64,000 nucleotides of DNA, taken from assembly GCA_026122225.1 (NCBI GenBank), contig JANEZZ010002202.1, positions 372,001 to 436,000 of the forward strand, read 5' to 3'. Shown here piece by piece: positions 1,937-52,304 of this stretch. Position numbers and translations under genes: made by a program. Numbering within the stretch: the first letter of the stretch is position 1; each line of letters starts with the position of its first letter. The notes beneath the pieces are model-generated. The model had not been told where the DNA came from. It saw only the letters and a list, made by a program, of their open reading frames with translations, and ran no database searches. This stretch comes from Heloderma charlesbogerti (lineage: Eukaryota > Chordata > Lepidosauria > Squamata > Helodermatidae).

Positions 1937-1946
1937 ACTTACCTTG
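1937..1946 (-). promoter_or_regulatory. Outward splice-donor consensus, copy A left arm
   Basis: On the minus strand this reads CAAG|GTAAGT, about 115 bp inside the left end and pointing out of the element. It matches the vertebrate U1 donor consensus. Function is inferred. Confidence 0.45.
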
Positions 1947-2624
1947 TGCGAATGTCCCTGGAGGCGGTGGCTCCAGTGGTGGTTCGGCGGCGGTTTGGCG
2001 GCCGGTCTTCCGACCGGCTGCCACAGCCGCCATTTCCAAGTTAAAAAAAAAAAAGTGATAGGCTACGTAAAGATTTACGTCGCCTATCACGGCTAGATTT
2101 TTAAAAAACACCGTGATAGGCTACGTAAATGTTTACGTAGCCTATCACGGCTGAGTGAAAAAAACAACAACACACACACGCGTACGCAAATGGCGGCACC
2201 CATGGGCGCCGCCATTTGCGTTCCTTATTTTGGCACGTGTAGTTTACACGTGTAGCATTCCCCTTATTTTCACCGTAGTCTACGTAAATGTTTACATAGA
2301 CTACACGTGCCAAAATAAGGAACGCAAATGGCGGCGCCCATGGGCACCGCCATTTGCGTACGCGGGGTTTTTTTTTTCACTCAGCCATGATAGGCTACGT
2401 AAACATTTACGTAGCCTATCACAGCTGACTGCAGGGACGCAAACAGCGGCGGCTACGGCCACCGCCATTTGCATCCTGGCAGGACAGGATTTGCGGCGGT
2501 ATGGACGGGGCGCCTCCCCCCCGGCCAGAATTTCGGGGGAGGGACGGGGCGCCTCCCCCCCAGCCAGAATTTCAGGGGGGAGGGACGGGGCGCCTCCCCA
2601 CCACTGCGAATCAACTTTCGGGTT

Positions 2625-2632
2625 CAGGTAAG
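2625..2632 (+). promoter_or_regulatory. Outward splice-donor-like site, copy A right arm
   Basis: Reads CAG|GTAAG on the plus strand, about 24 bp inside the right end and pointing outward. Function is inferred. Confidence 0.4.
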
Positions 2633-2759
2633 GGACTTTCATACATCCCTAATGTCACCACGAAATATCTCGAAGGTAGGCATTCTCGGTGGTTTCACCC
2701 ACCCTCTGGAAAACCCTCCATTGTGCAGTTTGGGAGGCATAAAATATGGTATGTTTTAA

Positions 2760-6087: not shown

Positions 6088-9000
6088 TTGTTGTTGTTGT
6101 TCAGTCGTTAAGTCGTGTCCGACTCTTTGAGACCCCATGGACCATAGCACGCCAGGCCTTCCTGTCCTCCACTCTCTCTCCAAGTGTGCTCAAGCTCATA
6201 TTCATTGCATCAGTGATGCTATCGAGCCGTCTCATCCTCGGCCGTCCCCTTCTCCTTTTGCCTTCAATCTTTCCCAGCATCAGAGTCTTTTCCAGAGAGT
6301 TTTCTCTTCACATTAGGTGGACAAAATATTTGAGCTTCAACTTCAGTATCTATCCTTCCAATGAGCACTCAGGGTTGATTTCCTTTAGGATTGACTGATT
6401 TGACCTCCTTGCAGTCCAGGGGACTCGTAAGAGTCTTCTCCAGCACCACAGTTCGAAAGCATCAATTCTTCGGCGCTCAGCCTTCCTTATAGTCCAGCTC
6501 TCACAGCCATACATTACTACTGGGAAAACCATAGCTTTGATTAGACGGACCTTTGTCGTCAAGGTGATGTCTCTGCTTCTTACTATGCTGTCTAGGTTTG
6601 CCATAGCTTTCCTCCCAAGGAGCAAGCGTCTTTTAATTTCATGGCTACGGTCACTGTCTGCGGTGATCTTGGAGCCCAAGAAAGTAAAATCTGTCACTGC
6701 TTCCATTTCTTCCCCTTCTATATGCCAGGAAGTGATAGGGCCAGATGCCATGATCTTAGTTTTTTTAATGTTGAGTTTCAAACCAGCTTTTGCACTCTCC
6801 TCTTTCACTCTCAACAAGAGGCTCTTGAGATCCTCTTCGCTTTCTGCCATTAGGGTGGTATCGTCTGCATATCGGAGGTTGTTGATAATTCTCCCAGCAA
6901 TCTTAATTCCGATCTCTTATTCATCCAACCCGGCATTTCTTATGATGTACTCTGCATATAAGTTAAATAAGCAGGGTGACAATATGCAGCCTTGTCGTAC
7001 TCCTTTCCCAATTTTGAACCACTTGGTTGTTCCATGTCTGGTTCTTACTGTTGCTTCTTGACCCTCGTACAGGTTTCTCAGGAGACAGGTAAGGTGGTCT
7101 GGTACTCCCATCACTTTCAGAATTTGCCACAGTTTGTTGTGATCCACACAATCAAAGGCTTTAGTGTAGTCAATGAAGCAGAAATAGACGTTTTTCTGGA
7201 ATTCTCTTGCTTTCTCCATGATGCAGCGAATGTTGGCGATTTGATCTCTAGTTCCTCTGCCTCTTCGAAACCCAGCTTGTACTTCTGGTAGTTCTCGATT
7301 CGCATACTGCTGAAGCCTAGCTTGTAGGATTTTGAGCATCACCTTGCTGGCATGTGAAATGAGTGCAATTGTGCGGTAGTTTGAACACTCTTTGGCGTTG
7401 CCCTTCTTTGGAATTGGAATGTAAACTGACCTTTTCCAGTCTTGTGGCCATTGTTGAGTGTTCCACCTTTGTTGGCATATTGAATGCAGCACTTTAACAG
7501 CATCATCTTTTAGGATTTTAAATAGCTCAGCTGGAATACTGTCATCTCCGGTAGCTTTGTTGTTACTAATGCTTCCTAAGGCTCACTTGACTTCACTCTC
7601 AAGGATGTCCGGCTCAAGTTCAGTGACCGCACTATCATGGCTATCAAGGACATTCAGATCTTTCCTGTATAGTTCTTCTGTGTATTCTTTCCACCTCTTC
7701 TTAATCTCATCTGCTTCTGTTAGGTCCCTGCCTTCTTTGTCCTTTATCATGCCCGTCTTTGCACAAAATGTTCCCTTGCGATCCCAAATTTTCTTGAAGA
7801 GATCTCTAGTCTTTCCCATTCTGTTGTTTTACTCCATTTCTTTGCATTGTTCATTTAAGAAGGCCTTCTTGTCTCTCCTGGCTATTCTCTGGAACTCTGC
7901 ATTCAGTTGGATATATCTTCCCCTTTCTCCCTTGCTTTTCGCCTCCCTTCTTTCCTCAGCTACTTGTAAAGCCTCATCAGACAGCCACTTGGCTTTCTTG
8001 CATTTCTTTTTCTTTGGGATGGATTTCGTTGCTGCCTCCTGAACAATGTTATGGACCTCCGTCCATAGTTCCTCAGGCACTCTGTCTATCAGGTCTAATC
8101 CCTGAAATCTATTCCTCACCTCCACTGTATATTCATCAGGGATATGATTTAGGTCATACCTGAATGGTTTAGTGGTTTCCCCTACATTCTTCAATTTCAG
8201 CCGAAATTTTGCAACAAGAAGCTCATGATCTGAGCCACAGTCAGCTCCAGGTCTTGTTTTGACTGACTGTATGGAGCTTCTCCATCTCTGGCTGCAAAGT
8301 ACATAATCAATCTGATTTCGATATTGACCATCTGGTGATGTCCATGTGTAGAGTCGTCTCTTGTGCTGTTGGAAAAGAGTGTTTGCTATGATCAGCGTGT
8401 TCTCTTGGCAAAACTCTATTAGCTTTTGTCCTGCTTCATTTTGTACACCAAGGCCATGCCTGCCTGTTATCCCAGTGATTTCTTGACTTCCTACTTTAGC
8501 ATTCCAATCCCCTATGATGAAGAGGACATTTTTTTTGGTGTTAGTTCTAGAAGGTGTTGTAGGTCTTCATAGAACCGATCAACCTCAGCTTCTTCAGCAT
8601 CAGTGGTTGGGGCATAGACTTGAATTACTGTGATGTTGAATGGTTTGCCTTGGATTTGTACTGAGATCATTCTATCGTTTTTGAGATTGTACCCCAGTAC
8701 TGCTTTTCCCACCCTTTTGTTGACTATGAGTGCTACTCCATTTCTTCTAAGGGATTCTTGCCCACAATAGTAGATATGATCGTCACCTGAATTAAATTCG
8801 CCCATGCCTGTCCATTTTAGTTCACTGATTCCCAAGATGTCAATGTTCAATCTTGCCATCTCATGTTTGACCACCTCCAGCTTACCTTGATTCATTGATC
8901 TGACATTCCAGGTTCCTAAACAATATTGTTCTTTACAGCATCGGATTTTCTTTTCACCACCAGACACATCCACAGCTGAGTGTCCTTTCGGGTTTGGCCC

Positions 9001-9304: not shown

Positions 9305-9306
9305 GG

Positions 9307-20400: not shown

Positions 20401-20608
20401 TTCTATAAAAGAGGACACATGGCCACCCTATAATATAGATAGCTCCCATCTAAAATAGCTACTCAGTAGCAAACACACAGCTAGGGATGGCAGAGAATTC
20501 CACCACAGATTCCAGTGAGGCCTAATGCACTGGCATTCAGCCCCCCAGAATCCATGGCGGAATGGCCTCCTGCCCCCCCGCCCGTCCTGCGGAACCCCCC
20601 GGGACGAA

Positions 20609-20617
20609 GCTTACCTG
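20609..20617 (-). promoter_or_regulatory. Outward splice donor, copy B left arm
   Basis: Minus strand reads CAG|GTAAGC, pointing out of the element about 133 bp from the end. Function inferred. Confidence 0.45.
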
Positions 20618-21423
20618 TGGCGGATGTGACGGCTTCGGCGGTGGCACGGTGGCAGCGCGGTGCTGGCGGAAGGTGCAGCGGCAGAAGGTGTGGCAGCGGG
20701 GGCGGCGACGGTGGGGGCGGCAGGTGGGGCGGGGGCGGGGGTGGTGGAAAGGGCGTCAGCGGCAGAAGGGGCAGCAGCGGGGGTGGCAGCAGGGGTGGTG
20801 GTGGGGCAGCGGGGGTGGAGGCAGGAGGTGTGGCGGCAGCAGGCGGTGGCGGAAGGTGCGGCGGAACGGGCAGCGATGGCAGGTGCAGTGCCAGGGGCGG
20901 CAGGGGTGGCTCCGGCGCCGGGGGCGGGGGTGGCAGGTGCGGTAGGGGCGGCGGCAGGGGCGGCTGCTGCTGGGCGCAGTGAACGCAAATGGCGAGGGCT
21001 ACGGCAGCTGCCATTTGCGTTTGCTATTTTTAGCCATTCTAGCCTACGTAAATATTTACATAGGCTAGAACGGCTAAAAATAGTGAATGCAAATGGCGGC
21101 GGCCATAGCCGCCACCATTTGCGTATGAGTTTTTTTTTTTTACTTTGCCATGATAGGCTACGTAAATATTTACGTAGCCTATCACAGTTAAGTACAGGGA
21201 CGCAAACAGCGGCAGCTACGGCCGCCGCCATTTGCATCCCTGCTGCCCAGCGGCCAGATGTCCAGCTGCGGGTGGAGCCGGCCGGCGGCTCTGCAGAATC
21301 CCCGTGGAGCGGAGCCGGCTGGGCAGGATCCGGGGGGGAGGGACGGAGCGCCTCCTCCCCATCGAGGATTCTGTGGGGAGGGACGGAGCGCCTCCCGCCC
21401 CCACTGCAAAGCAGATCTGCGAA

Positions 21424-21432
21424 ATGGTAAGT
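21424..21432 (+). promoter_or_regulatory. Outward splice donor, copy B right arm
   Basis: Reads ATG|GTAAGT, 24 bp from the right end, pointing outward. Function inferred. Confidence 0.4.
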
Positions 21433-21458
21433 GGCTTTCGTACATCCCTACCACAGCA

Positions 21459-22896: not shown

Positions 22897-22922
22897 GGCG
22901 GGAGTAGGGGTACACGAAAGCC

Positions 22923-22932
22923 ACTTACCTGG
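22923..22932 (-). promoter_or_regulatory. Outward splice donor, copy C left arm
   Basis: Minus strand reads CCAG|GTAAGT, 24 bp from the end, a perfect consensus. Function inferred. Confidence 0.5.
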
Positions 22933-23693
22933 TCTTGCAGCTTTTTGCAGTGGGGGGAGGCGCTTCGCTGCTCTCCCCCCGAAGTTCAGACTGGGGGGGG
23001 AGGCTTCCCGCCTCCCCCAGCTGAAATTCAGGCCGGGGAGGAGGCTTCCCGTCTCGCCCGGCCGCAAAATAAAAAGTTAAAAAAAAAAACACCCCCGTGA
23101 TAGTCTACGTGACGATTAACGTAGCCTATCACGGCTAGATCTGCAAAGTCAGCCGTGATAGGCTACGTAAATCGTCACGTAGCCTATCACGGGTGACTTA
23201 AAAAAAAAAAAAAAGTGCGTACGGCTAATGGCGGCCCCCATAGGGAGCCGCCATTCACGTTCCTTATTTGGTCGCTGTAGTCTACGTAAATCTTTACGCA
23301 GACTACGGCGAAAATAAGGGCAATGCAAATAGTGTTGCCCTTATTTTCGCCGTAGTCTACGTAATCTTTACGTAGACTACAGCGACCAAATAAGGAACGG
23401 GAATAGTGGCTCCCTATGGGGGCCGCCATTAGCTGTACGCACTTTTTTTTCCCCCACAGTCACCCGTGATAGGCTACGTGATGATTTACGTAACCTATCA
23501 CGGCTGACTTTGCAGATCTAGCCATGATGGGCTACGTTAATCGTCACGTAGCCTATCACGGGGGCGTTTTTTTTTTTTAGTTTTATTGGAATGGCAGCGT
23601 TGGCAGCTGGTCAAAAGATTGGCTGCCGCCCCCGCCCCTGATGAAGACCCGACGAACCGCCGCCGGGACCCGCCGCCGGGAGGGACATTCGGG

Positions 23694-23703
23694 AAAGGTA
23701 AGT
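23694..23703 (+). promoter_or_regulatory. Outward splice donor, copy C right arm
   Basis: Reads AAAG|GTAAGT about 133 bp inside the right end, pointing outward. Function inferred. Confidence 0.45.
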
Positions 23704-23965
23704 CCCATCCCGGGGGGGTGCGGGGTGTGGGGGGAGTGTGGAGAATGTCTCCCTGAAACTTCTTCGGGGGGCCAAACACGTTGGCGCTCGGCCCCCCGAA
23801 GTTTCGGGGAGAAATTCTCCGCCAACCCTAGGCGAGAGAGCCAACGTGGGTGGATGGAGGAAAGAGCTAACTATACCTCTGAGATACCTTCTAAATTATA
23901 TAACACTGACTGAGGCTGAGTTCAAAGATGGTCACTTGGGCCCAGCAACCAAAGCAACAGCAAGG

Positions 23966-24729
23966 TAGGGATGTCAGAGAATTCCGCGACGGATCTCGGT
24001 GAGGCCCCCCGAAATCCATTGTGGAACAAAGCCCCCACCTCCCCCAACCCACAAAAGTCGGGCGGGACGAAGCCCCTGCCCCCCCAACCCATGAAAGTCG
24101 CACGAAACAGAGCACGTACCTGCTCCCGTCGGCGCTGACTTGCGAATGGCAGCCGCCCTGCGGCTGCCATTCGCTTCTTCTTCACGGCCGTGATAGGCTA
24201 CATAAATACATACGTAACCTATCACGGCTAACACAGGGATGCCTTTTGCGTCCCTGCGGAGGCTGTGATAGGCTACATAAGTATTTACATAGCCTATCAT
24301 GGCAGGCCGCCATTTGCGTTCTGTATTTTTCGCCGTTTTAGCCTACATAAATATTTACGTAGGCAATTACGGCCAAAAAGAGGGGAATGCAAATGGCACC
24401 CACTACGTCATTTGCATTCCCCTTTATTTCGCAGTAATAGAATGGCGAAATAAAATGGCGGAAAATACAGAACGCAAATGGCGGCCACCATAGCTGCCGC
24501 CATTTCTGTAAGCTTTTTTTTTTTAAAGCCTGCCGTGATAGGCTACGTAAATACTTACGTAGCCTATCACGGCTCACTACATTTGCATCCCTGCTGCCCA
24601 GCAGCCAGATGTCCGGCTGCGGGCAGAGCCGGCTGGCGGCTCTGCGGAATTGCTGCGGAGCGGAGCCGGCCGTGCAGGATTCCGGGGGGGTTGACAGGAG
24701 CGCCTCCCCCCCGTCGAGGATTCCGGAGG
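23966..24729 (+). mobile_element. Palindromic hAT element, copy D (right end lost)
   Basis: Type-1 left end TAGGGATGTCAGAGAATTCC, flank cagcaagg. Donor-like GTACGT (24114-24122, minus strand). The core has GTGATAGGCTACATAAATAC-type hairpins (24188-24226, 24265-24302, 24534-24572) and CAAATGGCGGCC hairpins. The type-2 arm is interrupted at 24730 by copy E and its terminus is missing. Closely related in layout to copy L. Confidence 0.75.
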
Positions 24730-25451
24730 TAGGGTTGGTGGAGAATTTCTCCACGAATCTTCGGGAGGCCGAGTGCTGACGCATTCGCCCCCCCGAAAGT
24801 GTTGGGGAAATTTTCCGCTGGCCCCCGCCCCCCCGGGATGGGACCTACCTTCGGCGAATGTCCCTCTCGGCGGCGGGTCCCAGCGGTGGTTTGGCAGCGT
24901 TTCGTCGGGGGCGGGGGCGGCGGCCGGTCTCCCGACTGGCTGCTGCCGCCGCCATTGCAAATAAAAAAAAGTAAAGTAAAAAAACAACAACACACCCCTG
25001 ATAGGCTACGGAATGATTTACGTAGCCTATCACGGCTAGATTTCCAAAGTAAGCCATGATAGGCTACGTAAATCATCATGTAGCCTATCACAGGTGACTT
25101 GGGGGGAAAAAAAAGCGCATATGCAAATGGCGGCAGCCCATGGGCCGCCATTTGCGTTCCTTATTTGGTCCCTGTAGTCTACGTAAAGATTTACGTAGAC
25201 TACGGCGAAAATAAGGGAACGCTATTTGCGTTGCCCTTATTTTCGCCATAGTCTACGTAAATCTTTACGTAGACTAGACGTGCCAAAATAAGGAATGCAA
25301 ATGGCGGTCCCCATGGGAGCCGCCATTTGCATACGAGCTTTTTTTTTTTTTTTTTCAAAGTCACCCGTGATAGGCTACGTGACGATTTACATAGCCTATC
25401 ACGGCTGACTTTGGAAATCTAGCCGTGATAGGCTATGTAAATCGTTACGTA
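24730..25451 (+). mobile_element. Palindromic hAT element, copy E, inside D and truncated
   Basis: Type-1 start TAGGGTTGGTGGAGAATTTC. The donor-like site on the minus strand at 24843-24851 reads AAG|GTAGGT. The core has outer GTGATAGGCTACG hairpins, A and T runs, ATGGCGGC hairpins and GTCTACGTAAAGATTTACGT hairpins. It stops within the second right-hand hairpin at 25451 and is followed by 'caaggcaagcaaag'. The 'caagg' there may be the remnant of D's flank cagcaagg, so one deletion could have removed the right ends of both D and E. Confidence 0.75.
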
Positions 25452-26559
25452 GCCTATGACAAGGCAAGCAAAGTAGCAAGCAAGTCTAGGGGGGTAAAAT
25501 AGGCAGGTAGATGGAATCCAAAGGAAGGGCAGCAACAAGCAGGCTTAATAAGGGCCTTGGTTCAAGACAGGTCTAGTCAAGATTTCTAGCTAGTCTTTCA
25601 TAAGACCACTGAAGTATAAGAAAACCAGAACTGCTATAGGAGGCAGTTATCCATCACTGGTGCCTGAGAATGAAGTGATCCCAAACTCAGTGGCCATTAA
25701 TCTAGTTTCTAGGAACATTTGACTCTATATAATTCCCTTCCCTTGTTTGTTGCGTAGGAACTCCATAATTGGCATTTCTATATGCCATGAGTATATTTGA
25801 GTTTAAGAAAGCTGTACTGTCTGTGAGACACATCTAAGGTAATTCTATTTGTATTATGGTGACTGGTTGTGTGAAAGCTTTGACTTTCACAGACAAATAG
25901 TAAGATTACAATGTATCCCCATAAAGGTCATGTTTCATCGGAATTCAGGCAGACAAGTTAGGGTTTCTATGGGCTAAATTATATGGGATGAGGAATATCC
26001 ATGATTAGGATCTTCCACATATTTTAAAAGGATAAACTGCAGCCCAAAGTGCCCTAAACTGGATTAGGACCATGGCACTGGGGGAGGAGGTTTTTTTTTT
26101 TTAACCCTGTATCCCATCATTTTCCCAGTTAAAATAACCCCCAAAACTGCCCTTGCAAACTTGCATGAATGACAAATAGCTGCTTAGAGTGTGTGGGGTG
26201 GTGGTGGGATGGGGTCGGGAGTGTGGGGAGAGGAGATTTTAATTGGAATGGCATGGCATGGTGGGAAGCATCAAAATGGAAGGTGGAAAGGGTTAAAACT
26301 CCTCCCACCATGCCATGATTCCAGTCCGATTCAGTGCCAACTCCCATAGTTGCTGTTAATTTTTTAAAGAACTGTGGGTGATATGGATCACAGTTCTCCC
26401 CCATGCAACTAGTTATCTCCTACGCTACACCAGGACAATCAGCCACGTAGATACCATCTCCAAAATAAAAATAAAAGCCACTTCTAAAAACAACAACAAT
26501 GCCATTTAAGCATGTAAAGAAAACAGGGCAGTGGAAGTGAAAATGGAATTCAAGAATTA
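25452..26559. other. Unique DNA, nothing recognised
   Basis: No supported gene or repeat. Confidence 0.4.
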
Positions 26560-37649: not shown

Positions 37650-37740
37650 TGTGTGTGTGTATGCATATATATATATATATGTGTGTGCATGTGTGTGTGT
37701 ATACACACGACAACACACACGCACACACACACACACAGCA
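37650..37740. repeat. Compound (TG)n(TA)n(CA)n microsatellite
   Basis: Runs of TG, TA, TG and CA in series next to the PLE 3' repeat. Confidence 0.85.
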
Positions 37741-37789
37741 TGACAACATCTGTGGGTCTGCCATCTCAAGCAGCTAAGGGTAGCTGCCT

Positions 37790-37880: not shown

Positions 37881-38096
37881 GTCAAATAGAATGAAGTACA
37901 ATACAATCTATTGAAGTACAATAGAACAATAGAATGAAGTACTATTCATGTTCAGTTAAAACCTCTAATCCTTAGTTGATCTTGACTTAGCAGCTATGTC
38001 TCCAGACTTTTCATTACCAACATGAAGAAGTGAATTAAAGAAAATAATCAGATAATAAAATTACATATGGTTATGATTAGGGGTGTATGAAACCCC

Positions 38097-38106
38097 ACTT
38101 ACCTGG
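38097..38106 (-). promoter_or_regulatory. Outward splice donor, copy F left arm
   Basis: Minus strand reads CCAG|GTAAGT, 25 bp from the end. Function inferred. Confidence 0.5.
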
Positions 38107-38351
38107 CTCTTCTGGGTCTGTGGGGGGGATCCAGTCCTCCCCCCCGGAAACCTGCCTGGCCGGCTCCGCTCCGTGGCCAGTCTGCGGAGCCGCCAGCTGG
38201 GCCAATCCGCAGTGGGGCCTCCATCTGCTGCCGGGCTGCTGCGGACGCAAATGGCGTCCTGAGTAGGGGACGCCATTTGTGTCCCTACACTAGGCCGTGA
38301 TAGGCTACATAAATATTTACGTAGCCTATCACGGCTAAAGCAGGGACACAA

Positions 38352-39659
38352 ATGCTTTTGGGCAAGGTGATTGAGCGGGTGGTGGCGGTGCAGTTGAAGG
38401 CACACTTGGAAGAAACTGATTATCTAGACCCATTTCAGTCGGGCTTCAGGCCTGGGCATGGGACAGAAACGGCCTTGGTCGCCTTCGTGGATGATATGAG
38501 GAGGGCTCTGGATAGGGGTGAATGCTCCTTTCTTGTTCTCCTCGACCTCTCAGCGGCTTTTGATACCGTTGACCACGGTATCCTCCTGGACCGCCTGGAG
38601 GGGTTGGGCATTGGAGACACTGTATTGCGGTGGTTCCGGTCCTTCCTCTCCGGCAGGTACCAGAGGGTAGCACTGGGAGAGGAGGTTTCGGACCCGTGGC
38701 CACTTACTCGTGCGGTGCCACAGGGTTCCATCCTCTCCCCGATGCTTTTTAACATCTATGTGAAGCCGCTGGGGGCTATCATCAGGAGGTTTGGGGTGCA
38801 GTGTCATCAATATGTGGATGACACGCAGCTCTACCTCTCATTCAAATCTTCACCAAGGTTGGCCGTAGAATTCCTGTCCAAATGTCTGGAGACGGTGAGT
38901 GGCTGGATGGGGAGGAATAAGCTGAAGCTCAACCCTGACAAGACAGAGGTACTTGTGGTGGGAGACAAGAGGAGGCTGGGGGATGTTGACCTGGTGTTGA
39001 ATGGGGTACGGCTACCCTTGAAAGACCAGGTCCGCAGCCTGGGGGTCATTTTGGATTCCCAGCTGTCCATGGAGGCTCAGGTGTCAGCTGTGAGCCGGAC
39101 AGCACTGTATCAACTCCATCTGATACGGCGGCTGCGCCCCTTCCTTCCCAACCATCTGCTCCCATCGGTAGTACATGCCCTGGTCTCCTCTCGTTTAGAC
39201 TACTGTAATGCACTCTATGTGGGGTTACCCTTGAAGACGGTTCGGAAGCTGCAGCTGGTACAGAACGTGGCGGCTCACCTGATTAAAGGCAGCCGCCGGC
39301 GAGATCACATCACTCCAGTGCTGAAGGAGTTGCACTGGTTACCAGTTGTTTTCAGGGCCAAATTCAAGGTGTTGGTTTTGACCTTTAAAACCTTATATGG
39401 TTCCGGCCCAGCCTATCTTAAGGAGCGCCTCCAGCAACACCAGACAGGCCGCTTAACAAGATCAGCCTCGGATGGCCTTCTCTCTGTCCCATCAGCCAGG
39501 ACAGCTAGACTGGTGGGGACGAGGGAGAGGGCCTTCTCTGTGGTGGCCCCCACTCTGTGGAACTCCCTCCCTAGGGAACTCTGTCATGCCCCCTCTTTAA
39601 TGAGCTTCCGTCGTGCATTAAAAACGTGGTTGTTCAGGCAGGCATTTGGGGTGGGTTAG
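38352..39659 (+). CDS. L2 reverse transcriptase C-terminal frame (435 codons, truncated)
   Basis: The frame has no stop for 435 codons. Reverse transcriptase motifs: DLSAAFDTVDH about residues 65-75, VPQGSILSPMLFN 122-134, YVDD 154-157, then LKLNPDKTEVLVVGDK. The C-terminal L2 block follows: HALVSSRLDYCNALYVGLP, HITPVLKELHWLP, FSVVAPTLWNSLP. L2 proteins normally begin with an endonuclease and upstream palm-finger region, which are missing. The first ATG (38352) comes from the target-site copy of the host hAT element, not from L2. Catalytic aspartates are present, but the protein is probably non-functional alone. Confidence 0.85.
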   Translation: MLLGKVIERVVAVQLKAHLEETDYLDPFQSGFRPGHGTETALVAFVDDMRRALDRGECSFLVLLDLSAAFDTVDHGILLDRLEGLGIGDTVLRWFRSFLSGRYQRVALGEEVSDPWPLTRAVPQGSILSPMLFNIYVKPLGAIIRRFGVQCHQYVDDTQLYLSFKSSPRLAVEFLSKCLETVSGWMGRNKLKLNPDKTEVLVVGDKRRLGDVDLVLNGVRLPLKDQVRSLGVILDSQLSMEAQVSAVSRTALYQLHLIRRLRPFLPNHLLPSVVHALVSSRLDYCNALYVGLPLKTVRKLQLVQNVAAHLIKGSRRRDHITPVLKELHWLPVVFRAKFKVLVLTFKTLYGSGPAYLKERLQQHQTGRLTRSASDGLLSVPSARTARLVGTRERAFSVVAPTLWNSLPRELCHAPSLMSFRRALKTWLFRQAFGVG

Positions 39660-39801
39660 GGTATTTTTTTAAAAAAAATTATGGTAAAATTTTATTGTTT
39701 TAAATTGTTTTATGGTGGGTTGTACATCGCCCAGAGTGGCTGGGTGACCAGTCAGATGGGCGATTAATAAATTTAATAAATAAATAAATAAATAAATAAA
39801 T
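38355..39801 (+). mobile_element. L2-clade LINE, 5'-truncated, long ORF, inside copy F
   Basis: The body runs from 38355 to an (AAAT)n tail ending at 39801. AAATG flanks both sides (38350-38354 and 39802-39806), a short, partly ambiguous duplication. It is 5'-truncated within the reverse transcriptase, losing the endonuclease. The 3' UTR is 'gtacatcgcccagagtggctgg...gggcgattaataaat'. Confidence 0.88.
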
Positions 39802-40002
39802 AAATGGCGGCCGCTATGCCATTTGCATCCCTGTCTTTAGCCGTGATAGGCTACGTAAATATTTACATAGCCTATCACGGCTAAAATGGGGACGCAAATG
39901 GCAGCCGCTATGATGGCAGCCATTTGCGGCTGCAGCAGCCCGGAAGACAATCTGGAGCCTCTGCTGGAGTTGCTGCCGGAGCCGCTGCTGCTGAAGCCGC
40001 CG

Positions 40003-40012
40003 CCAGGTAGGT
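40003..40012 (+). promoter_or_regulatory. Outward splice donor, copy F right arm
   Basis: Reads CCAG|GTAGGT, about 127 bp inside the right end, pointing outward. Function inferred. Confidence 0.4.
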
Positions 40013-40217
40013 CCATTCTGGGGATTTCGGGGGGTGGCGGGGGGGTAGTCCATTCCACCATGGTCTCTGGGGGGCCGGATTCTAAAGAATCCGGCCTCAC
40101 TGGAGTCCATGGCGGAATTCTCCAACATTCCTAGTTATGATCAACCAATATGTAGGCAATGTGATGCGCATGATATAGCACTCCAGAACAAATAAATGGC
40201 CACCAGTAGCACATCCA

Positions 40218-40280: not shown

Positions 40281-40301
40281 ATGTTGTTTCTTAGGCACAG
40301 G

Positions 40302-41143: not shown

Positions 41144-41255
41144 GATTTACATAGGGATGTCAGAGAATTTTGCCACGAATCTCGGGGAGGCTGAATGCCA
41201 GCGTATTCGGCCCCCCGAAATCAGTGGCGGAACGGTCTGCCCCCCCCGGGACGGG

Positions 41256-41265
41256 ACTTACCTTG
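41256..41265 (-). promoter_or_regulatory. Outward splice donor, copy G left arm
   Basis: Minus strand reads CAAG|GTAAGT, about 110 bp inside the end. Function inferred. Confidence 0.45.
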
Positions 41266-41950
41266 GGCAGATCTTCCTGGCGGTGGTGGCGGCTCCGGCG
41301 GCGGTTCGGCGGCGGTTTGGCGGCCGGTCTTCTGACCGGCTGCCGCCGCCACCATTTCCAGTTAAAAACAAAACAAAAAAACGTGATAGGCTATGTAAAG
41401 ATTTATGTAGCCTATCACGGCTAGGTTTTTAAAAAACACCGTGATAGGCTACGTAAATGTTTACGTAGCCTATCACGGCTGATTTAAAAGAAAAAAAACC
41501 CCCGCGCATATGCAAATGGCGGTGCCCATGGGCGCCGCCATTTGCGTTCCTTATTTTGGCACGTCTTAGTCTATGTAAACATTTACGTAGACTAAGATGG
41601 CATTCCCCTTATTTTCGCTGTCTTAGTCTACCAAGACGTGCCAAAATAAGGAACGCAAATGGCGGTGCCTATGGGCGCCGCCATTTGCATACGCGCATTT
41701 ATTTTCTTTTAAATCAGCTGTGATAGGCTACGTAAACATTTATGTAGCCTATCACAGCTGACTGCAGGGACGCAAACGGCGGCGGCTATGGCCATTTGCG
41801 TCCCTGCTAGCCAGCGGCCGGATGTCCGGCTGCTGGCGGAGCCGGCCGGCGTCTCTGCAGAGTTCCTGTGGAGCGGAGCCGGCCGGCCGGCCAGAATTTC
41901 AGGGGGGAGGGATGGAGCGCCTCCTCCCCATCGCAAATGTCACCATTCCA

Positions 41951-41960
41951 AAAGGTAAGT
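41951..41960 (+). promoter_or_regulatory. Outward splice donor, copy G right arm
   Basis: Reads AAAG|GTAAGT, 24 bp from the right end. Function inferred. Confidence 0.45.
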
Positions 41961-41986
41961 GACTTTCGTACATCCCTAGATTTACA

Positions 41987-43519: not shown

Positions 43520-44873
43520 CTCATGGAATCCTCAACAGGGGGGGAGGCAATCTGATCCTCCCCCCCGGAATCCTCGACGGCCAGCTCTGCTCCACGGCCA
43601 GGCCACTGAGCAGCCGGCCAGGGCTGTCCGCAGCTGGATTTCTGGCCACGGATGGCCTAGTGCGGATGCAAGTGGCGGCCGCAGTAGCGGCCGACATTTG
43701 CTTCCAGCTAGACAGCCGTGATAGGCTACGTAAGAATTTACGTAGCCTATCACAGCTAACGTCAAAAGAGCAAAACAACACAGCATACGCAAAAGGCGGC
43801 AGCTACAGTGGCCGCCATTTGCGTGGCCTATTTTTCGCTTACTTATCTTATATAAATATTTACGTAAGGCAAAACAGCGAAAAAAAAGGGGAACCCAAAT
43901 AGCGTAGTGGACGCTATTTGCGTTCCTTTATTTTTCGCCGTTCTGGCCTACGTAAATATTTACGTAGGCTAGAATGGCGAAAAATAAAGGAACGCAAATA
44001 GCATCCACTACGCTATTTGCATTCCCCTTTTTTTTGCCATTTTATCTTACGTAAATATTTACATAAGATAAGTCAGCGAAAAATAGAGAGCTTTGGCTAT
44101 TGGGCGGTATAGAAATTAATTAATTAATTAATTAAATAAATAAATAAAATAGGCCAAGCAAATGGCGGCCGCCGTAGCCGCTGCCATTTGCGTACGCTGT
44201 GTGTTGTTGTTGTTGTTTTTATGTTAGCCGTGATAGGCTACATAAATTTTTACGTAGCCTGTCATGGTCAAGGACAGCGATGGTGGCGACAGCAGCCCTG
44301 CTGTGGCCGGCCAGGAGACCAGCCGCTGCCGCCGAATCCGCTGCCGAATCCGCCCCAGGTAAGTGCCATCCCGAGGGGATTCCGCAGGGAGCGGGGGGCA
44401 GGAGGCCGTTCTGCCACGGATTCTGGGGGGCCGGATTCTAAAGAATCCCACCCCCTGGAGTCCGTGGAGGAATGGACTACCCCCCTGCCATCCCCCAAAA
44501 TCCCTCCTGGAATGGACCTACCTGGCAGCGGCAGTGATGGCTCTGGCAGTGGCTCCGGCAGCAGGTCTGGGACGTCTTCTGGCCGTTGCTGGGCTGCTAC
44601 GGCCACAAATGGCAGCTGTTGTAGCAGCCACCATTTGCATCCCTGCCAAGCTGTGGTAGGCTATGTAAGTATCTACATAGCCTATCATGGCAAAAGTCAG
44701 GGACACAAATGGTGGCCACATTTGCAGCTGCAGCCCAGCAGCAGCCGGAAATCCGGCTGCAGCTGGCCCCAGCCAGCAGCTCTGCAGCCGGAGAGGATTC
44801 TGGGAGGGAGGGACGGATTGCCTCCCCCCCACTGCAGACTGCTGGCTGGAACGGGGTATTTCGCACACCCCTA
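43520..44873. mobile_element. Palindromic hAT elements, copy H: two elements fused (H1 + H2)
   Basis: H1 (about 43520-44484) begins inside a type-2 arm whose terminus is lost, passes a core with CTACGTAAATATTTACGTAG hairpins, and ends in a type-1 arm with donor CCAG|GTAAGT at 44355-44364. H2 (about 44472-44873) starts in a type-1 arm (minus-strand donor CCAG|GTAGGT at 44516-44525) and ends TTCGCACACCCCTA, type 2. The two type-1 arms meet head to head at a shared GGAAT near 44470, with both outer tips missing. Right flank gtctcctc lies in CR1; no matching left flank is present. The H2 type-2 arm lacks the usual donor. Confidence 0.75.
44086..44145 (+). mobile_element. Tiny L2 3'-end insertion in copy H
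   Basis: 'gagctttggctattgggcggtatagaaatt' plus (AATT)n(AAAT)n interrupts the hairpin stem. The stem reads AAAAATA on both sides of the insert, so an AAAATA-type duplication is plausible. Confidence 0.7.
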
Positions 44874-45108: not shown

Positions 45109-45480
45109 TGGGGATGTTACAGAATTCCACCATGGATCCCAGGGGGGGCCTAATTCCAGTGAATTCGCTTTAGCCGTGATAGGCTTTGTAAATATTTACA
45201 TAGCCTATCACAGGCTACCATAGGGACACAAATGGCGTCCCCTACTCAGGACGCCATTTGCATCCGCAGCAGCCCGGCAGCGGCTGGAGGCCCCGCTGCG
45301 GGTTGGCCTGGCCAGCGGCTCCGTGGCCTGGCTGCAGAGCGGAGCTGGCCAGGCAGGATTCCGGGGCGGGGGACGGATCGCCTCCCCCCCCCGTCGAGGA
45401 TTCCGGGGGGAGGAACAGATCGCCCCCCCCCAACCTGCGGAACCTGGCGGAGCCAGGTAAGCAGGGTTTCATACACCCCT
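45109..45480 (+). mobile_element. Palindromic hAT element, copy I, miniature, perfect TSD
   Basis: Left TGGGGATGTTACAGAATTCC (type 1), right GTTTCATACACCCCTA (type 2), 372 bp. Flanks ctattaat at 45101-45108 and 45481-45488 are identical, inside CR1. It keeps one GTGATAGGCT hairpin (45176-45213) and one CAAATGGCGTCC hairpin. The type-1 donor block is deleted; the type-2 donor CCAG|GTAAG is at 45452-45460. Confidence 0.93.
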
Positions 45481-46292
45481 ACTATTAATGCAGCCCAAAA
45501 TAACATTTGCCTTTTTTGCAGCCACATCTTATTCATATTCATATTCAGCTTGTGATCTACAACAATTCCAGCATCCTCCTCGTTTGTAGTGTTGTTGAGC
45601 CACGTATCTCGCATCGTGTAACTGGGCATTTGGTTTCTTTTTCCTAGGTGCAGAACTTGGCATTTATCCCTATTAAATGTCATTCTATTGTTTTCTCTCC
45701 AGTACTCCAATCTATCAAGATCACTTTGAATTTTGTTTCTGTCTTCCAAAGTATTAGCTATCCCGCCCAATGTTGTGTCATCTGCAAATTTGATCAGCAT
45801 TCCCTGCACCTCCTCCTCCAAGTCATTAATAAAAATGTTGAAGAGCACTGGGCCCAGGACTGAGCCCTACGGTACCATGCTGGTTACCTCTCCCCAGTTT
45901 GAGAAAATCCCATTGATAAGCACTCTTTGAGTCCGATTCTGTAGCTAACTGTGGATCACTGGATCGTTGTTTCATCTAGCCCACTTTGAGCTAATATCAG
46001 GATATCGTGGGGCACTTTGTCGAAACTTTGCTGAAGTTGAGGTATATTATGTCCACAGCATTCCCACAGTGCTCAAGGGAGGTTGCTTGATCAAAAAATG
46101 AGATCAGATTCGTCTGTCAGGATTTGTTCTTCACAAATCCATGTTGGCTTCAGGTAATCACTGCATTGTTTTCAAGGTGCTTCCAGATCGATTGCTTTAT
46201 CATCTGCTGCAGAATTTTCCCAGGGATTGATGTCAGACTGACTGGTCTGTAGTTCCCATGTTCCTCCTTTTTACTAGGAATGTACGAAAGGC

Positions 46293-46302
46293 ACTTACCT
46301 GG
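46293..46302 (-). promoter_or_regulatory. Outward splice donor, copy J left arm
   Basis: Minus strand CCAG|GTAAGT, 24 bp from the end. Function inferred. Confidence 0.5.
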
Positions 46303-46961
46303 TCCCGCAGATTGCTTCGCGGGTGGGGGGGAGGCGCTTCGGTTCTCCCCCCGAAGTTCAGGCTGGGGGGGGAGGCGCCCCGCCTCGCCCGGCCGAAATT
46401 CAGGCCAGGGAGAAGTGCCCCGTCTCCCCGGCTGCAAAATACAAAAGTGAAAAAAAACCCACCCGTGATAGGCTACGTAACGATTTACGTAGCCTATCAC
46501 GGCTAGATTCCCAAAGTCAGCCATGATAGGCTACGTAAATCGTTACGTAGCCTATCACAGGTGACTTTGAAAAAAAAAAAAACCCGTACACAAATGGCGG
46601 CGCCCATGGGCGCCGCCATTTGCGTTCCTTATTTGGTCCCAGTAGTCTACATAAAGATTTACGTAGACTACGGCGAAAATAAGAGCAACGCTATTTGCGT
46701 ACGCGCTTTTTTTTTCCCCCAAAGTCACCCGTGATAGGCTACGTAATGATTTACGTAGCCTATGACAGCTGACTTTGGGAATCTAGCCGTGATAGGCTAC
46801 GTAAATCGTTACGTAGCCTATCCGAGGTGTTTTTTGTTTTTTTTTACTTTATTTTGTAATGGCGGCGGCGGCAGCCAGTCGGAAGACCAGCCGCCGCCCC
46901 CACCCCCAACGAACCGCCGCCAAACTCCCGCCGGGACCCGCCGCCGAGAGGGACATTCGAG

Positions 46962-46971
46962 GGAGGTAAGT
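46962..46971 (+). promoter_or_regulatory. Outward splice donor, copy J right arm
   Basis: GGAG|GTAAGT about 117 bp inside the right end. Function inferred. Confidence 0.45.
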
Positions 46972-47814
46972 CCCATCCCGGGTGGGGCAGGGGGCGGAGA
47001 ATTTCACCAACAATTTCGGGGGGCTGAATGCGTTGGCATTCGGCCTTCCCAAGATTCGTAGAGAAATTCTCTGACATCCCTACTTTTTACCCTTTTTGAA
47101 GATAGGGACAACATTAGGCCTCCTCCAGTCATCTGGCACTTCACCTGTCCTCCATGATTTCTCAAAGGGAATAGACAGTGTTCTGAGGGTTCTTCTGCCA
47201 GTTCCTTTATTACTCTAGGATGCAGTTCATCTGGCCCTGGAGATTTGAACTCATTCAAAGTAATTAGGTGTTCTGTCCTTGACCATATGCTTATCGATCT
47301 CAAGGTGCAATCCTGCCCCTTCAGCCTGTACTTTGCCTTTGCCAGGGGGGTCATAGACCCTCTTTTGGGAGAAGACTGAGCCAAAGTAGGAATTGAGCAC
47401 ATCTGCCTTTTCTTTGTCCTCTGTTATCATTTTGCCATCCTTATTTAATAGCTGAACCACCATTTCTTTCCTCTGTCTTTTACTTTGCACATAGCTGAAG
47501 AAAGCCTTTTTGTCGCTTTTAGCATCCCTCGCTAACCTCAGCTCGTTCTCAGCTTTAGCCTTCCTGATGCCATCCCTATAATTCTGTGCTACCTGCCTTC
47601 ACTCTTCCTTTGTTGTTTGGCCTTCTTTCCACTTCCTATATGTATGCTTTTTTGTTTTCAGGTCATCTCCAAGCTTTTTGTGAAGCCACATTGGCTTCTT
47701 CTGTTGTCTTCCACCTTTTCTTCTTGTGGGAAATTTTTGTAATTGTGCCTTGAGAATTTCTTTTTTTAAAAGCTCCCACCCATCTTGGACTCCTTTTCTC
47801 GTTAGAGTCGCTTG

Positions 47815-48586
47815 TAGGGATGGGAGAGAATTTCTCGCCGAAACTTCGGGGGGCCGAGTGCCAACGTATTCGGCCCCCTGAAGTAGTTTCGGGGAGAAAT
47901 TCTCCACCCCCCCACCCCCCCTGGGATGTCGATTTGCAAAGTCAGCCATGATAGGCTACGTTAATCGTCTCATAGCCTATCACGGGTGACTTAAAAAAAA
48001 AAAAAAAGCACGTACGGCTAATGGCAGCCCCCATAGGGAGCCGCCATTCGCGTTCCTTATTTGGTCGCTGTAGTCTACGTAAAGATTACGTAGACTACGG
48101 CGAAAATAAGGGCAACGCTATTTGCGTTGCCCTTATTTTCGCCGTAGTCTACGTAAAGATTTACGTAGACTACAGCAACCAAATAAGGAACGCGAATGGC
48201 GGCTCCCTATGGGGGCCGCCATTAGCCGTATGCACTTTTTTTTTTTTTAAGTCACCCGTGATAGGCTACGTGACGATTAACATAGCCTATCACGGCTGAC
48301 TTTGCAGATCTAGCCATGATAGGCTACATAAATCATCACGTAGCCTATCACGGGGGCGTTGTTTTTTTTTTAACTTTTTATTTCGCGGCTGGGTGAGGCG
48401 AGGCGCCTCCTCCCCGGCCTGAATTTCGGCCGGACGAGGCAGGAAGCCTCCCCCCCAGCCTGAATTTCGGCTGGGCGAGGAGGGAAGCCTCCCCCCCCGG
48501 CCTGAACTTCGGGGGGAGCAGCAAAGCGCCTCCCCCCACCGCGAAGCAAGCTGCGAGACCAGGTAAGTGACTTTCGTGCACCCCTA
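47815..48586 (+). mobile_element. Palindromic hAT element, copy K, perfect TSD
   Basis: Left TAGGGATGGGAGAGAATTTC (type 1), right CTTTCGTGCACCCCTA (type 2). Flanks gtcgcttg at 47807-47814 and 48587-48594 are identical, inside CR1. The type-1 arm is shortened and has lost its donor and the first outer hairpin. The remaining core closely matches copy C, including 'gtacggctaatgg' and a centre 'gcaacgctatttgcgttgc'. The type-2 donor CCAG|GTAAGT is at 48559-48568. Confidence 0.94.
48559..48568 (+). promoter_or_regulatory. Outward splice donor, copy K right arm
   Basis: CCAG|GTAAGT, 24 bp from the right end. Function inferred. Confidence 0.5.
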
Positions 48587-51500
48587 GTCGCTTGCCATGG
48601 GACCTTACTGATCATTGTTCTGAATTTATTAAAATCAGCTTTCCTAAAACCCAGGGTACGCGTTTGACTACACTCAGCTTTTGCTTCCCTTAGAACCAAG
48701 AACTCAAGTACAACATGGTCGCTTTCCCCCAGAGTTCCTGTAACTGCTACTTTATCCACTAAGTCATCTCTGTTGGTTAGGATCATGTCAAGGATAGCCA
48801 ATCCTCTAGTTCCTTCCTCTACTTTCTGTAGGAGGAAGTTATCTGCCACACAAGTCAGGAATTTCCTGGAGGGGCCATGTTCTGCAGAATTTGTCTCCCA
48901 ACAAATATCGGGGAAATTGAAGTCCCCATAACTACTATATCATGGTTCCTTGAAACATTGACTATTTGCTTTTGGAAAGTTTCATCCTCATCTTCTCCTT
49001 GATTGGTTGGCCGGTAGTAGACTCCGACCACCAGATTCCTTTTATTCTTTGCTCCATTTATTTTGATCCAGATGCTGTCTCAGCTTTGTCCACCAGGGTA
49101 CTTAGTGCAGCACCAACCTAGATTGGAGGGTTGGGGGGGGGGAGGAATTGCTGTCATCCATAAGGATTCAATCTCCCTCACGAGGAAACCCATCCATTCT
49201 AGCACCAGTTTTGAGGGCCTGTAGGTTGTGTTGGTCAAAAGAGGCAGAACATATATGCTGCCGGTGTACCGCCCACACTGCTGCCCAGCAGTCTCCCTGC
49301 CTGAGCTGGCTGAGATGGTCTTGGAGGTGGTGTTGGAGAACCCTAGGACGGTGGTTCTGGGGGACTTCAACATCCACGCTGAGGCTATCCTGACAGGGCC
49401 TGCTCAGGACTTCATGGCAACCATGACAACTATGGGGCTGTCTCAGTGCATCACTGACCCAACACATGTAGCAGGACATGCCCTAGACCTGGTTTTTGCT
49501 GTTGGGCGGATGAGGGATGATCTGGTTTTGGGGGGTGTTTCAACAACCCTGTTGTCATGGTCAGATCATTTCCTTGTGAAGTTTGGATTGGCAGTAGCAG
49601 ATCCTCCCTGCAGGGGTGGGGGACCAATTAAGATGGTCTGCCCCCAGAGACTTATGGAATCCTATGGATTCCTGAATGCTGGTGACACCCCACCCCAGAA
49701 CTCCTAATGACCTCTCCCAATGGGGGATTTTCCGGCTGATAGGGCTGGTGATTCGGGCAAGGCTGTGTTCTTACTATGGAATGGTGAGATGGGAAGGACC
49801 ATTGATACAGTTACTCCCAAGTGCCCTCTCTGGTGCGGTGGCGCCTGTAATTTACCTTGGTTTACAGAAAATCTACGGGCAATGAAACAGGCCGGATGAT
49901 GGCTAGAGTGCAGGTGGCGCAGGTCTTGGAGTGAATGAGCGATGATTAGCAAAGACTCTTGGATGTGCCTGTTATGCGGCAGTGAAGATGGCAAAAAAAA
50001 AATCTTACTATGCATCTATTATTTCATCCTCAAAATGTCACCCAGCAGAATTGTTCCGAGTAGTGAAGGGCCTGTTGGGATCTTGCTCAGGCTCAGAGAA
50101 ACTGGGATTGGAACCCTCGGCCATCTGCTGTGATATGTTTGCTAGGCACTTCGAGGAGAAAGTCACTCATATTTGCTCAGAACTTGACAGCACCGTTATT
50201 GCAGACTCTGGGGAGGTGTCCAGTGTTCCATCTGGTTGTGTTTCCTGGGATCATTTTCAGTTTTTGCAGCCTGATGATATGGACAAGACACTTGAATCAG
50301 TCTGGCCCACCACCTGTAAGCTTGACCCTTGCCCATCTTGGTTTATATGATCTAACAGGGGTGGATTGGCTGGGTGGGTCCAGGGATTGGTAAGTGCTTC
50401 GCTCTGTCAGGGCAGGGGGTGGTTCCTGCTGCCTTGAAAGAGGCTGTAATGTGCAGTCTCCTGAAGAGACCCTCCCTGGACCCAGAAGTGTGTGAGAACT
50501 ATCGCCCTATTGCCAGTATCCCCTTTTGGGGCAAGGTGCTTGAGCGTGTGGTGGCTGGGCAGCTTCAGGTGTTCTTGGAGGACACAGATTATTTGGACCC
50601 ATTTCAGTCTGGTTTCAGGCCAGGGTACGGCACTGAAATGGCCTTGGTTGCTCTTGCTGATGACCTACTCCAGGTGAAAGACAGGGGAAGTGCCACCCTG
50701 TTGATCTTCCAGGATCTCTCAGCGGCTTTTGACACCATTGATCATGGTGTCTTACTGGATCGGCTCTGCAGGATGGGAGTTGGGGTACTGTGCTACAGTG
50801 GTTTTGCTTCTACCTGCAGGGCCGATCCCAGAGAGTGATATTGGGGGATTCCTGTTCTACCCCATGGCTTTTAAGTTGTGGGGTGCCACAGGGTTCTATT
50901 CTATCCCACATGCTGTTCAACATCTATATGAAGCCATTGGGAGAGGTCATTAGGAGTTCTGGGGTGGGGTGTCACCAGTACGCTGATGATACTCAGCTCT
51001 ATTTCTCCTTGTCGTCGGAGTCAGCTGGGGTGGTGAAGGTGCTGGACCAGTGCCTGAAGGCTGTAATGGGCTAGATGAGGGCCAATAAATTGAAGCTGAA
51101 TCCTGACAAGACAGCTTGTCCTGGATGGGGTTGCACTCCCCCTGAAGGAGCAGGTGCATAGCTTGGGAGTACTCCTAGATCCATCCCTGTCACTGGAGCC
51201 CCAGGTGGATTCCGTAGACAGGAGTACTTGGGGCCAGTTTTGGCTGATCCGCCAGCTATGGCCTTTCCTGGATAGGGATAACCTAGCCACAGTAGTGCAT
51301 GCACTGGTAACTTCCCGATTAGACTACTGCAATGCATTTTATGTGGGGCTGCCCATGAAGACGACTTGGAAGTTGCAGCTAGTGCAAAATGCAGCAGCTA
51401 GACTGCTGACCGGAACACCCCGTAAAAACCATATAACACTGGTTTTAAAGGAATTGCACTGGCTGTCAATACGCTTCCAGCTGGAGTTCAAGGTTTTGGT

Positions 51501-51602
51501 GATGACATTTAAAGCCCTAAGTGGCTTGGGGCCTTGATATTTGAGGGAGCGCCTCTCTCTATATATACATATGCCTGCCTGAGAACTGAGATCTGTTGGA
51601 GG

Positions 51603-52304
51603 TAGGGATGTCAGAGAATTCCGCGACGGATCTCGGTGAGGCCGAATGCCAGTGCATTCAGCCCCCTGAAAACCATCGTGGAACGACACCCCCGCCCCCC
51701 CCAACATATGAAAGGCGCGCGGGACGAAGTGCCTGCTGCCCCCACCCCATGAAAGGCTCGCGAAATGGAGCACTTACCTGCTCCCATCCGCGCTGCTGTG
51801 CAAATGGCAGCCGTCCTGTGGCTGCCATTCGCTTGCTCCTCTTCAGCCGTGATAGGCTACGTAAATACTTACGTAACCTATCACGGCTAACGCAGGGACA
51901 CCATTTGCATCCCTATGGAGGCCATGATAGGCTACGTAAGTATTTATGTAGCCTATCACGGCGGGGGGGGGGAACCCAGCATATGCAAATGGCGGCAGCT
52001 ACCGCCATTTGCGTACGCTGGTTTCCCCCCCCCAGCCGTGATAGGCTATGTAAATTTTTATGTAGCCTATCACAGTGAAAGAAAGGGATGCAAATGACGG
52101 TGGCTACGACAGCCGCCATTTGCGTCCCTGCAGGGCTGCCCAGCAGCCAGATGTCCAGCTGTGGGTGGCCGGAGCCGGCTGGCAGCTCTGCAGCTTGGCT
52201 GCAGAGCGGAGCCGGCCAGCCAGGATTCCGGGGGGAGGGATGGAGTGCCTCCCCCCACAGCGGAACCCGGCGGAGCCAGATAAGTGGGGTTTCGTACACC
52301 TCTA
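51603..52304 (+). mobile_element. Palindromic hAT element, copy L, perfect TSD
   Basis: Left TAGGGATGTCAGAGAATTCC (type 1), right TTCGTACACCTCTA (type 2). Flanks gttggagg at 51595-51602 and 52305-52312 are identical, inside the L2. Core hairpins of the GTGATAGGCTACGTAA class at 51848-51886, 51925-51961 and 52038-52075, with CAAATGGCGGC hairpins between. The left donor on the minus strand is CAG|GTAAGT (51772-51780). At the right arm the motif reads CCAGATAAGT, so the donor GT is lost. Layout like copy D. Confidence 0.95.
51772..51780 (-). promoter_or_regulatory. Outward splice donor, copy L left arm
   Basis: Minus strand CAG|GTAAGT about 175 bp from the end. Function inferred. Confidence 0.45.

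Follow-up and report, generated by a model that had tools for sequence, protein, structure and literature searches.

Outward-facing splice donors in both arms of a hairpin-rich hAT-like transposon family from Heloderma charlesbogerti

Strong 5' splice donors that point out of the element are found in both arms of a transposon family present in 12 copies (A-L) within 64 kb of the Heloderma charlesbogerti genome (contig JANEZZ010002202.1, positions 372,001 to 436,000, the whole stretch being referred to here as the window). The two ends of each copy are unlike each other, and the arms behind them are named type-1 and type-2. The explanation that we prefer, tentatively and short of calling it probable, is that these copies are non-autonomous hAT transposons built of serial hairpins, and that their arms have split roles: the type-1 donor would form the 3' end of an outward first exon, and the type-2 donor would mainly be a subterminal contact of the transposase.

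The family and its outward donors

As listed in the first-pass annotation of this DNA, donors occur in 11 of the 13 type-1 arms and 8 of the 10 type-2 arms, and all 19 lie where they had been placed and point outward (Table 1). The type-1 donors sit 110-175 bp inside A, B, C, D, E, F, G, J and L, again as claimed, with two more in H1 and H2, neither of which has a free end; the type-1 arms of I and K have lost the donor segment itself. The type-2 donors are 24 bp from the end in A, B, C, G, J and K and 25 bp in F and I; in L the GT has become AT, and in H the site is lost. The type-2 donor had been described as mostly CCAG/GTAAGT (the slash marking the exon-intron boundary), a sequence that is exact in C, F, J and K but in only these four of the eight, the set being less uniform than claimed: I has CCAG/GTAAGC, A has TCAG/GTAAGG, B has AATG/GTAAGT and G has AAAG/GTAAGT. 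Among type-1 donors it is the +4 base that varies, with GTAGGT in E, F and H2 and GTACGT in D. The donors of L and D lie deeper than the rest (175 and 154 bp), and in both a tandem repeat of a 20-24 bp stretch flanks the donor on its outer side (51640-51780 in L, 24000-24122 in D). Judged by eye, CAGG heads each repeat and only the inner one continues as a donor; one of two donors may have been lost.

Donor strength was scored in bits with a donor matrix, over 13 element pieces that total 9,646 bp, the long interspersed nuclear element (LINE) insert of F being excluded. There are 19 sites of at least 9 bits in these pieces, every one of them at an outward donor position; H2 is counted as outward, since it runs inward only because H is apparently a fused double. 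Weaker sites, of 7-8.2 bits, also occur elsewhere in the pieces, and B, E and J contain eight that face inward. The scoring against shuffled arms that the annotation had proposed (300 dinucleotide shuffles per arm, over the outer 230 bp of type-1 arms, less for H1, H2 and I, and the outer 100 bp of type-2 arms) bears it out with this matrix, each of the 19 donor arms being matched by at most 4% of shuffles; the four donorless arms (type-1 of I and K, type-2 of H and L) resemble shuffles. Across the 23 arm stretches no inward site scores above 7.8, whereas the outward ones score 9.6-12.7; over whole elements, inward scores go up to 8.2. CAGGTAAG is found nine times in the 13 pieces, where shuffles give 0.33. 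Since the copies share ancestry, these occurrences are not independent events. It is nevertheless confirmed that the outward donors are real and more than chance, and by this matrix the family has the strong outward 5' splice site that would be looked for in a mobile first exon.

The ends of the copies, of the TAGGGRTG type, together with their matching 8-bp flanks, give the family a hAT signature. The hAT end consensus is of the TAGGG/CAGGG type, and short terminal inverted repeats of this kind are found here. Nine copies have both ends (D, E and H each lack one), and among these the flanking 8-mers match at 8/8 positions in F, G, I, J, K and L, as in an 8-bp target-site duplication, at 7/8 in C, at 3/8 in A and at 1/8, in register, in B. 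A Pfam scan of 8 of the 51 open reading frames (ORFs) of the window gave no hAT transposase, one core pattern of the family had no exact match in viral contigs, and a protein search with one translated stretch of element L returned nothing at E <= 1e-5.

The interior of the copies consists of hairpin chains made of ACGTAAATATTTACGT and ATGGCGGC units. With both strands counted, the 13 pieces contain 108 occurrences of TACGTA (54 sites), where shuffles give 1.7, and 29 of ATGGCGGC, where shuffles give 0.7; the remaining 54 kb has no ATGGCGGC. T-rich tracts stand at the hairpin-core edges before the arms in J (46275-47082), C (22905-23830) and K (47815-48586). Element H (43530-44873) appears to be a fused double element, its two pieces joined by their type-1 arms. 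At 23966-25460, D ends exactly where E starts and neither has a right end, as if E had inserted and a deletion had then taken the remainder. A LINE-like reverse transcriptase ORF (RVT_1, 38352-39659) lies within F.

Constraint on the donor columns

The annotation had let its claim stand or fall by a comparison of the donor with neighbouring arm positions. This was run on the copies in the window, using gap-aware alignments and trees built from the arms excluding the donor, and the claim withstood it. Arms I and K were dropped from the type-1 column tests because the donor segment is absent from them; the type-2 tests include the broken L and H, and D and E contribute no type-2 end. The nine type-1 donor columns take 6 steps (p 0.007 against random columns, and p 0.04 on internal branches alone). 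Their core, columns -2, -1, +1, +2, +3 and +5, shows no change over 11 arms, other columns averaging 1.7 steps, and none of 20,000 random six-column draws is as low, these six having been picked after the data were seen. Variation is limited to columns -3, +4 and +6; these, together with the invariant -2, are the four that carry least information in the donor matrix. The nine type-2 columns are unchanged on internal branches, where other columns average 0.70 steps (p 0.001), and take 1.11 steps per column on terminal branches against 1.08 elsewhere; the total over all branches, 10 steps, falls short of significance (p 0.09), since decay in dead copies runs at the usual rate. Such a pattern would be expected if source copies had been under selection and dead ones had then decayed neutrally, and it does not indicate which feature was selected.

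Mere inheritance could also be at work, a few related source copies having happened to bear these 9-mers and the donors being neutral. Few lineages are involved, the type-2 donors decay on terminal branches like other columns, with two already broken, their total is not significant, and many other windows are equally conserved. However, six type-1 core columns without a change, where the average elsewhere is 1.7 steps, and the lack of any internal change in type-2 speak against this explanation, which we regard as unlikely.

In an ungapped conservation test the donor ranked first among 9-column windows in type-1 and joint first in type-2; the gap-aware version does not reproduce this, and the result was dropped. 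An origin of the type-1 donor from an internalised terminal repeat was also considered and is not supported: the sequence after the donor is no closer to type-2 than single-base shuffles (the lowest of 11 values being 0.08), and the sequence before it is above shuffles in only 1 of 11 arms (G, 0.01). Beyond the 9-mer itself, there is no detectable likeness between type-1 and type-2 flanks, except in one of 22 comparisons at 0.01.

Candidate roles of the two arms

The type-1 arm is plausibly built as an outward first exon. In 10 of 11 type-1 arms, B being the exception, a ATGGCGGC-like motif in sense orientation begins 51-113 nt upstream of the donor, against none of 10 type-2 arms within 113 nt; with the limit at 150 or at 200 nt, the counts are 10/11 and 1/10. 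About 16% of random stretches of these elements contain such a motif. We take ATGGCGGC to be positions 5-12 of the TISU element, by its 12-base consensus. The likeness to this TISU/YY1 core promoter element lies in the ATGGCGGC-like core standing in sense upstream of the type-1 donor, but the first positions of the consensus are not fully matched here. Runs of GGG, a mark of introns, become more frequent after the type-1 donor in all 11 arms, with 0-4 in the 60 nt before it and 5-15 in the 64 nt after. According to a study of TISU, positions 5-12 of TISU are required for transcription and bound by YY1, and the element is located up to +30 from start sites (PMC2518114).

Given this layout, transcription would start near the YY1/TISU-like motif at the edge of the hairpin core, and a short exon of 51-113 nt would extend from the motif to the AG/GTAAGT of the type-1 donor. 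The intron would comprise the G-rich outer arm and host DNA, and the donor could splice into a host acceptor downstream. The notion of a selected two-way first exon, put forward in the annotation, is supported in part, being plausible for the type-1 arm, with its invariant core and the motif upstream in 10 of 11 arms, but weak for type-2. Its full form, in which both donor sets were selected for outward splicing as a mobile two-way first exon or gene trap, would agree with 19 sites of at least 9 bits that all face outward, with the unchanged internal branches of type-2 and with flanks that are unlike beyond the 9-mer (the single comparison at 0.01 aside). Yet the motif is found in none of the ten type-2 arms within 113 nt and in one within 200 nt, two of the ten type-2 donors are dead, and their spacing from the tip is fixed; we consider the full form distinctly improbable.

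For the type-2 donor, the precedents lie in transposase binding. As set out in a study of Hermes, the binding core of its BED domain is AAGT with an AT-rich stretch, AAGC being weak on its own; copies of the motif, AAG(T/C) and in the end AAGT, are concentrated at the tips, five of them in the first 55 bp of each end; Tol2 carries AAGTACTT directly after its terminal repeat; and several hATs require about 100-200 bp of end (PMC10368747). AAGT is embedded in the donor GTAAGT. Since the type-2 donor is immediately next to the terminal repeat, a place at which AAGT is found in Hermes and Tol2, transposase binding becomes more likely for it, and the caveat in the annotation that its spacing might reflect a transposase-binding block is well founded, given the fixed 24-25 bp and this precedent. 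More simply, then, the type-2 donor would be a contact of a BED-domain transposase by the terminal repeat that happens to match U1, AGGTAAGT being a near-perfect match by chance and the site a usable yet incidental donor. Eight of 10 type-2 arms have AAG(T/C) at the donor, and five (A, B, C, G and K) have it facing inward at bp 14-17. As in Tol2 and Hermes, AAGT lies near the tips, those of type-2 in G and K reading AAGTCACTT just inside the repeat. Unlike Hermes, with its five copies per 55 bp, most arms here have fewer, and 4 of 11 type-1 blocks are without the core. A quasi-palindromic transposase site at the type-2 tips was suggested by eye in G and K and was rejected, as at least 30% of 500 shuffles do equally well at each of 17 tips.

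It is possible to extend this to both arms, such that the donor-like block is a transposase-binding subterminal repeat throughout, facing outward since the ends are inverted relative to each other and matching U1 by coincidence. The tip-concentrated AAGT of Hermes, the Tol2 repeat and the length of end required by several hATs agree with such a block, and in each arm set AAGT is more frequent than in shuffles (19 against 9.3, range 2-16, in one; 18 against 6.4, range 1-12, in the other). But AAG(T/C) taken as a class shows no excess in type-1 (31 against 31.1) and is within the shuffle range in type-2 (34 against 24.9, range 11-35), and four of the 11 type-1 arms (D, E, F and H2) have lost it and B has the weak AAGC, yet the donor is kept in all. 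Moreover, AAGT needs an AT-rich stretch after it in the account of Hermes (PMC10368747), but the blocks here are not AT-rich by eye. Two AT-rich relatives in the window (36452-36856 and 18309-18500) have about 90 bp of the type-1 tip in common with the family and carry no donor there and no ATGGCGGC, and the quasi-palindrome is not above chance. A common transposase role for both arms is, in our estimate, somewhat unlikely; in type-1, to judge from the sequence, transposase binding would be the weaker and the first exon the stronger reading.

In this split of roles, what is observed is that the donors exist, how they face, where the motifs lie and that the source lineages were constrained; where transcription starts, the splicing and the contact with the transposase are inferred. 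Several observations weigh against the split preferred here. Owing to the shared ancestry of the arms, counts such as 10/11 and 11/11 represent few independent events, and the 11 type-1 rows were found through their donor, the other two arms having no such segment. Contiguous 9-column windows as conserved as the donor number 16 of 170 in type-1 and 23 of 106 in type-2, so that the donor is one of several kept blocks. The range of 51-113 nt was taken from the data itself, 5 of 10 type-2 arms also carry a sense motif when the limit is 330 nt, and three type-1 arms have an antisense partner of the motif within 113 nt as well. The switch in G-runs was downgraded as a mark of the donor: compared with other positions in the same arms, the rise at the donor ranks at the 51st-94th percentile, which is no sharp mark. 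A kept reading frame was rejected, the frame of the ATG in the motif running to the donor without a stop in 9 of 10 arms (C is interrupted by one) and arriving there in phases 0, 1 and 2. A protected CpG island was likewise rejected: private transitions in six copies amount to 15.8% at CpG against 3.4% elsewhere, 4.7 times faster, so the CpG-rich core lacks the protection of an active island. Quasi-palindromes of 5+5 at the type-2 tips are no better than shuffles. Local unpairedness is above average at type-1 donors (mean percentile 0.78) but not at type-2 donors (0.47). Finally, the AT-rich relatives may use another transposase.

Table 1. Elements, splice donors and example motifs in the window (distances of donors are from the element end; flanks are matches between the two flanking 8-mers)
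Feature	Positions	Strand	Remarks
Element A	1827..2651	.	type-1 left, type-2 right; flanks only 3/8
Element B	20482..21450	.	type-1 left, type-2 right; flanks 1/8 in register
Element C	22905..23830	.	type-2 left, type-1 right; flanks 7/8
Element D	23966..24729	.	type-1 left; no right end, at start of E
Element E	24730..25460	.	type-1 left; no right end, right limit approximate
Element F	38078..40133	.	type-2 left, type-1 right; split by LINE-like ORF; flanks GTTATGAT 8/8
Element G	41152..41978	.	type-1 left, type-2 right; flanks GATTTACA 8/8
Element H	43530..44873	.	H1 + H2, apparently fused via type-1 arms; left end approximate, truncated
Element I	45109..45481	.	short; type-2 donor only, no type-1 donor segment; flanks CTATTAAT 8/8
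Element J	46275..47082	.	type-2 left, type-1 right; flanks CTTTTTAC 8/8
Element K	47815..48586	.	type-1 left without donor segment, type-2 right; flanks GTCGCTTG 8/8
Element L	51603..52304	.	type-1 left, type-2 right (donor GT>AT); flanks GTTGGAGG 8/8
Type-1 donor A	1937..1945	-	AAG/GTAAGT, 116 bp
Type-1 donor B	20609..20617	-	CAG/GTAAGC, 133 bp
Type-1 donor C	23695..23703	+	AAG/GTAAGT, 133 bp
Type-1 donor D	24114..24122	-	CAG/GTACGT, 154 bp
Type-1 donor E	24843..24851	-	AAG/GTAGGT, 119 bp
Type-1 donor F	40004..40012	+	CAG/GTAGGT, 127 bp
Type-1 donor G	41256..41264	-	AAG/GTAAGT, 110 bp
Type-1 donor H1	44356..44364	+	CAG/GTAAGT
Type-1 donor H2	44516..44524	-	CAG/GTAGGT
Type-1 donor J	46963..46971	+	GAG/GTAAGT, 117 bp
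Type-1 donor L	51772..51780	-	CAG/GTAAGT, 175 bp
Type-2 donor A	2625..2633	+	CAG/GTAAGG, 24 bp
Type-2 donor B	21424..21432	+	ATG/GTAAGT, 24 bp
Type-2 donor C	22923..22931	-	CAG/GTAAGT, 24 bp
Type-2 donor F	38097..38105	-	CAG/GTAAGT, 25 bp
Type-2 donor G	41952..41960	+	AAG/GTAAGT, 24 bp
Type-2 donor I	45454..45462	+	CAG/GTAAGC, 25 bp
Type-2 donor J	46293..46301	-	CAG/GTAAGT, 24 bp
Type-2 donor K	48560..48568	+	CAG/GTAAGT, 24 bp
Type-2 donor position lost in H	44846..44854	+	CTGGAACGG
Type-2 donor broken in L	52277..52285	+	CAG/ATAAGT
ATGGCGGC motif, arm A (example)	2026..2033	-	91 nt upstream of type-1 donor A
ATGGCGGC motif, arm J (example)	46859..46866	+	107 nt upstream of type-1 donor J

Neighbouring elements, known systems and significance

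Near-tip outward donors are neither confined to the A-L family nor general among the hAT-like elements of the window, and elsewhere strong donors are not limited to the tips. Of the AT-rich relatives, 36452-36856 has flanks matching at 6/8, an unrelated AAG/GTAAAT at 36686 (9.3 bits, 171 bp from the right end) and two 7.8-bit sites 255 and 267 bp from the left end; 18309-18500 has no site of at least 7 bits. An outward GTGAGT lies 19 bp from one tip in both 13177-13667 (at 13649, score 9.9) and 19618-20011 (at 19636, score 11.2), and the hAT-like elements 11998-12442 and 40300-40678 have no site of at least 7 bits. A second hairpin-rich hAT-like family comprises 28758-29710 and its truncated relative 35224-35775. 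The former has AGG/GTAAGT at 29554, 157 bp from the right end and facing that end, a strong site deep inside at 29185 (10.5) and a left tip without a donor; the latter has sites of 9.3 and 9.7 in opposite directions. ATGGCGGC is absent from all these other hAT-like elements. The window also holds two copies of one LINE, at 30304-32901, with an 865-aa open frame carrying endonuclease and reverse transcriptase domains, and at 6088-9305, and an ORF with a GIY-YIG domain at 36812-37777 that overlaps the right end of the relative 36452-36856. We take this ORF to be Penelope-like, and the LINE names are likewise our assumption.

The closest known case is that of maize Ac/Ds and Ds1, hAT elements whose tips are presumably TAGGGATG-like and whose ends, similarly, have splice donors tens of bases from the terminus. 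It is thus already known that hAT ends can carry splice donors: according to a study of Ds/Ds1, these ends supply donors to transcripts that enter the element, the donors of Ds1 being at 12, 22 and 33 bp and two of them identical to Ds donors found functional by reverse-transcription PCR (PMC5432752). The Ds1 donors are used by entering transcripts, whereas both arms here have donors that face outward, one set of them 110-175 bp inside; a Ds-like donor, near the terminus and open to entering transcripts, is not found, the type-2 donors being close (24-25 bp) but outward. Engineered gene traps and promoter-donor insertional mutagens have the arrangement proposed here, a promoter, a short exon and an outward splice donor, but are artificial. 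A literature search over titles and abstract openings, with few subscription papers, found no hAT family with outward splice donors.

A bolder version of the first-exon reading would have the source copies selected for an outward first exon, with a YY1/TISU-like initiator, a short exon and a U1-perfect donor, and the donor at the opposite tip serving both transposase binding and splicing. We consider it quite unlikely; if true, each new insertion would bring in an alternative first exon, ready for use, in either direction.

Should RNA confirm them, the outward direction and the promoter-like motif would be what is new in this family. The overlap of AAGT, the core of hAT transposase binding, with GTAAGT could, as a conjecture, help to explain the presence of splice donors at hAT ends generally. 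With outward donors beside a promoter-like motif, every new copy would provide the adjacent DNA with a first exon, a direct route from transposition to new transcripts.

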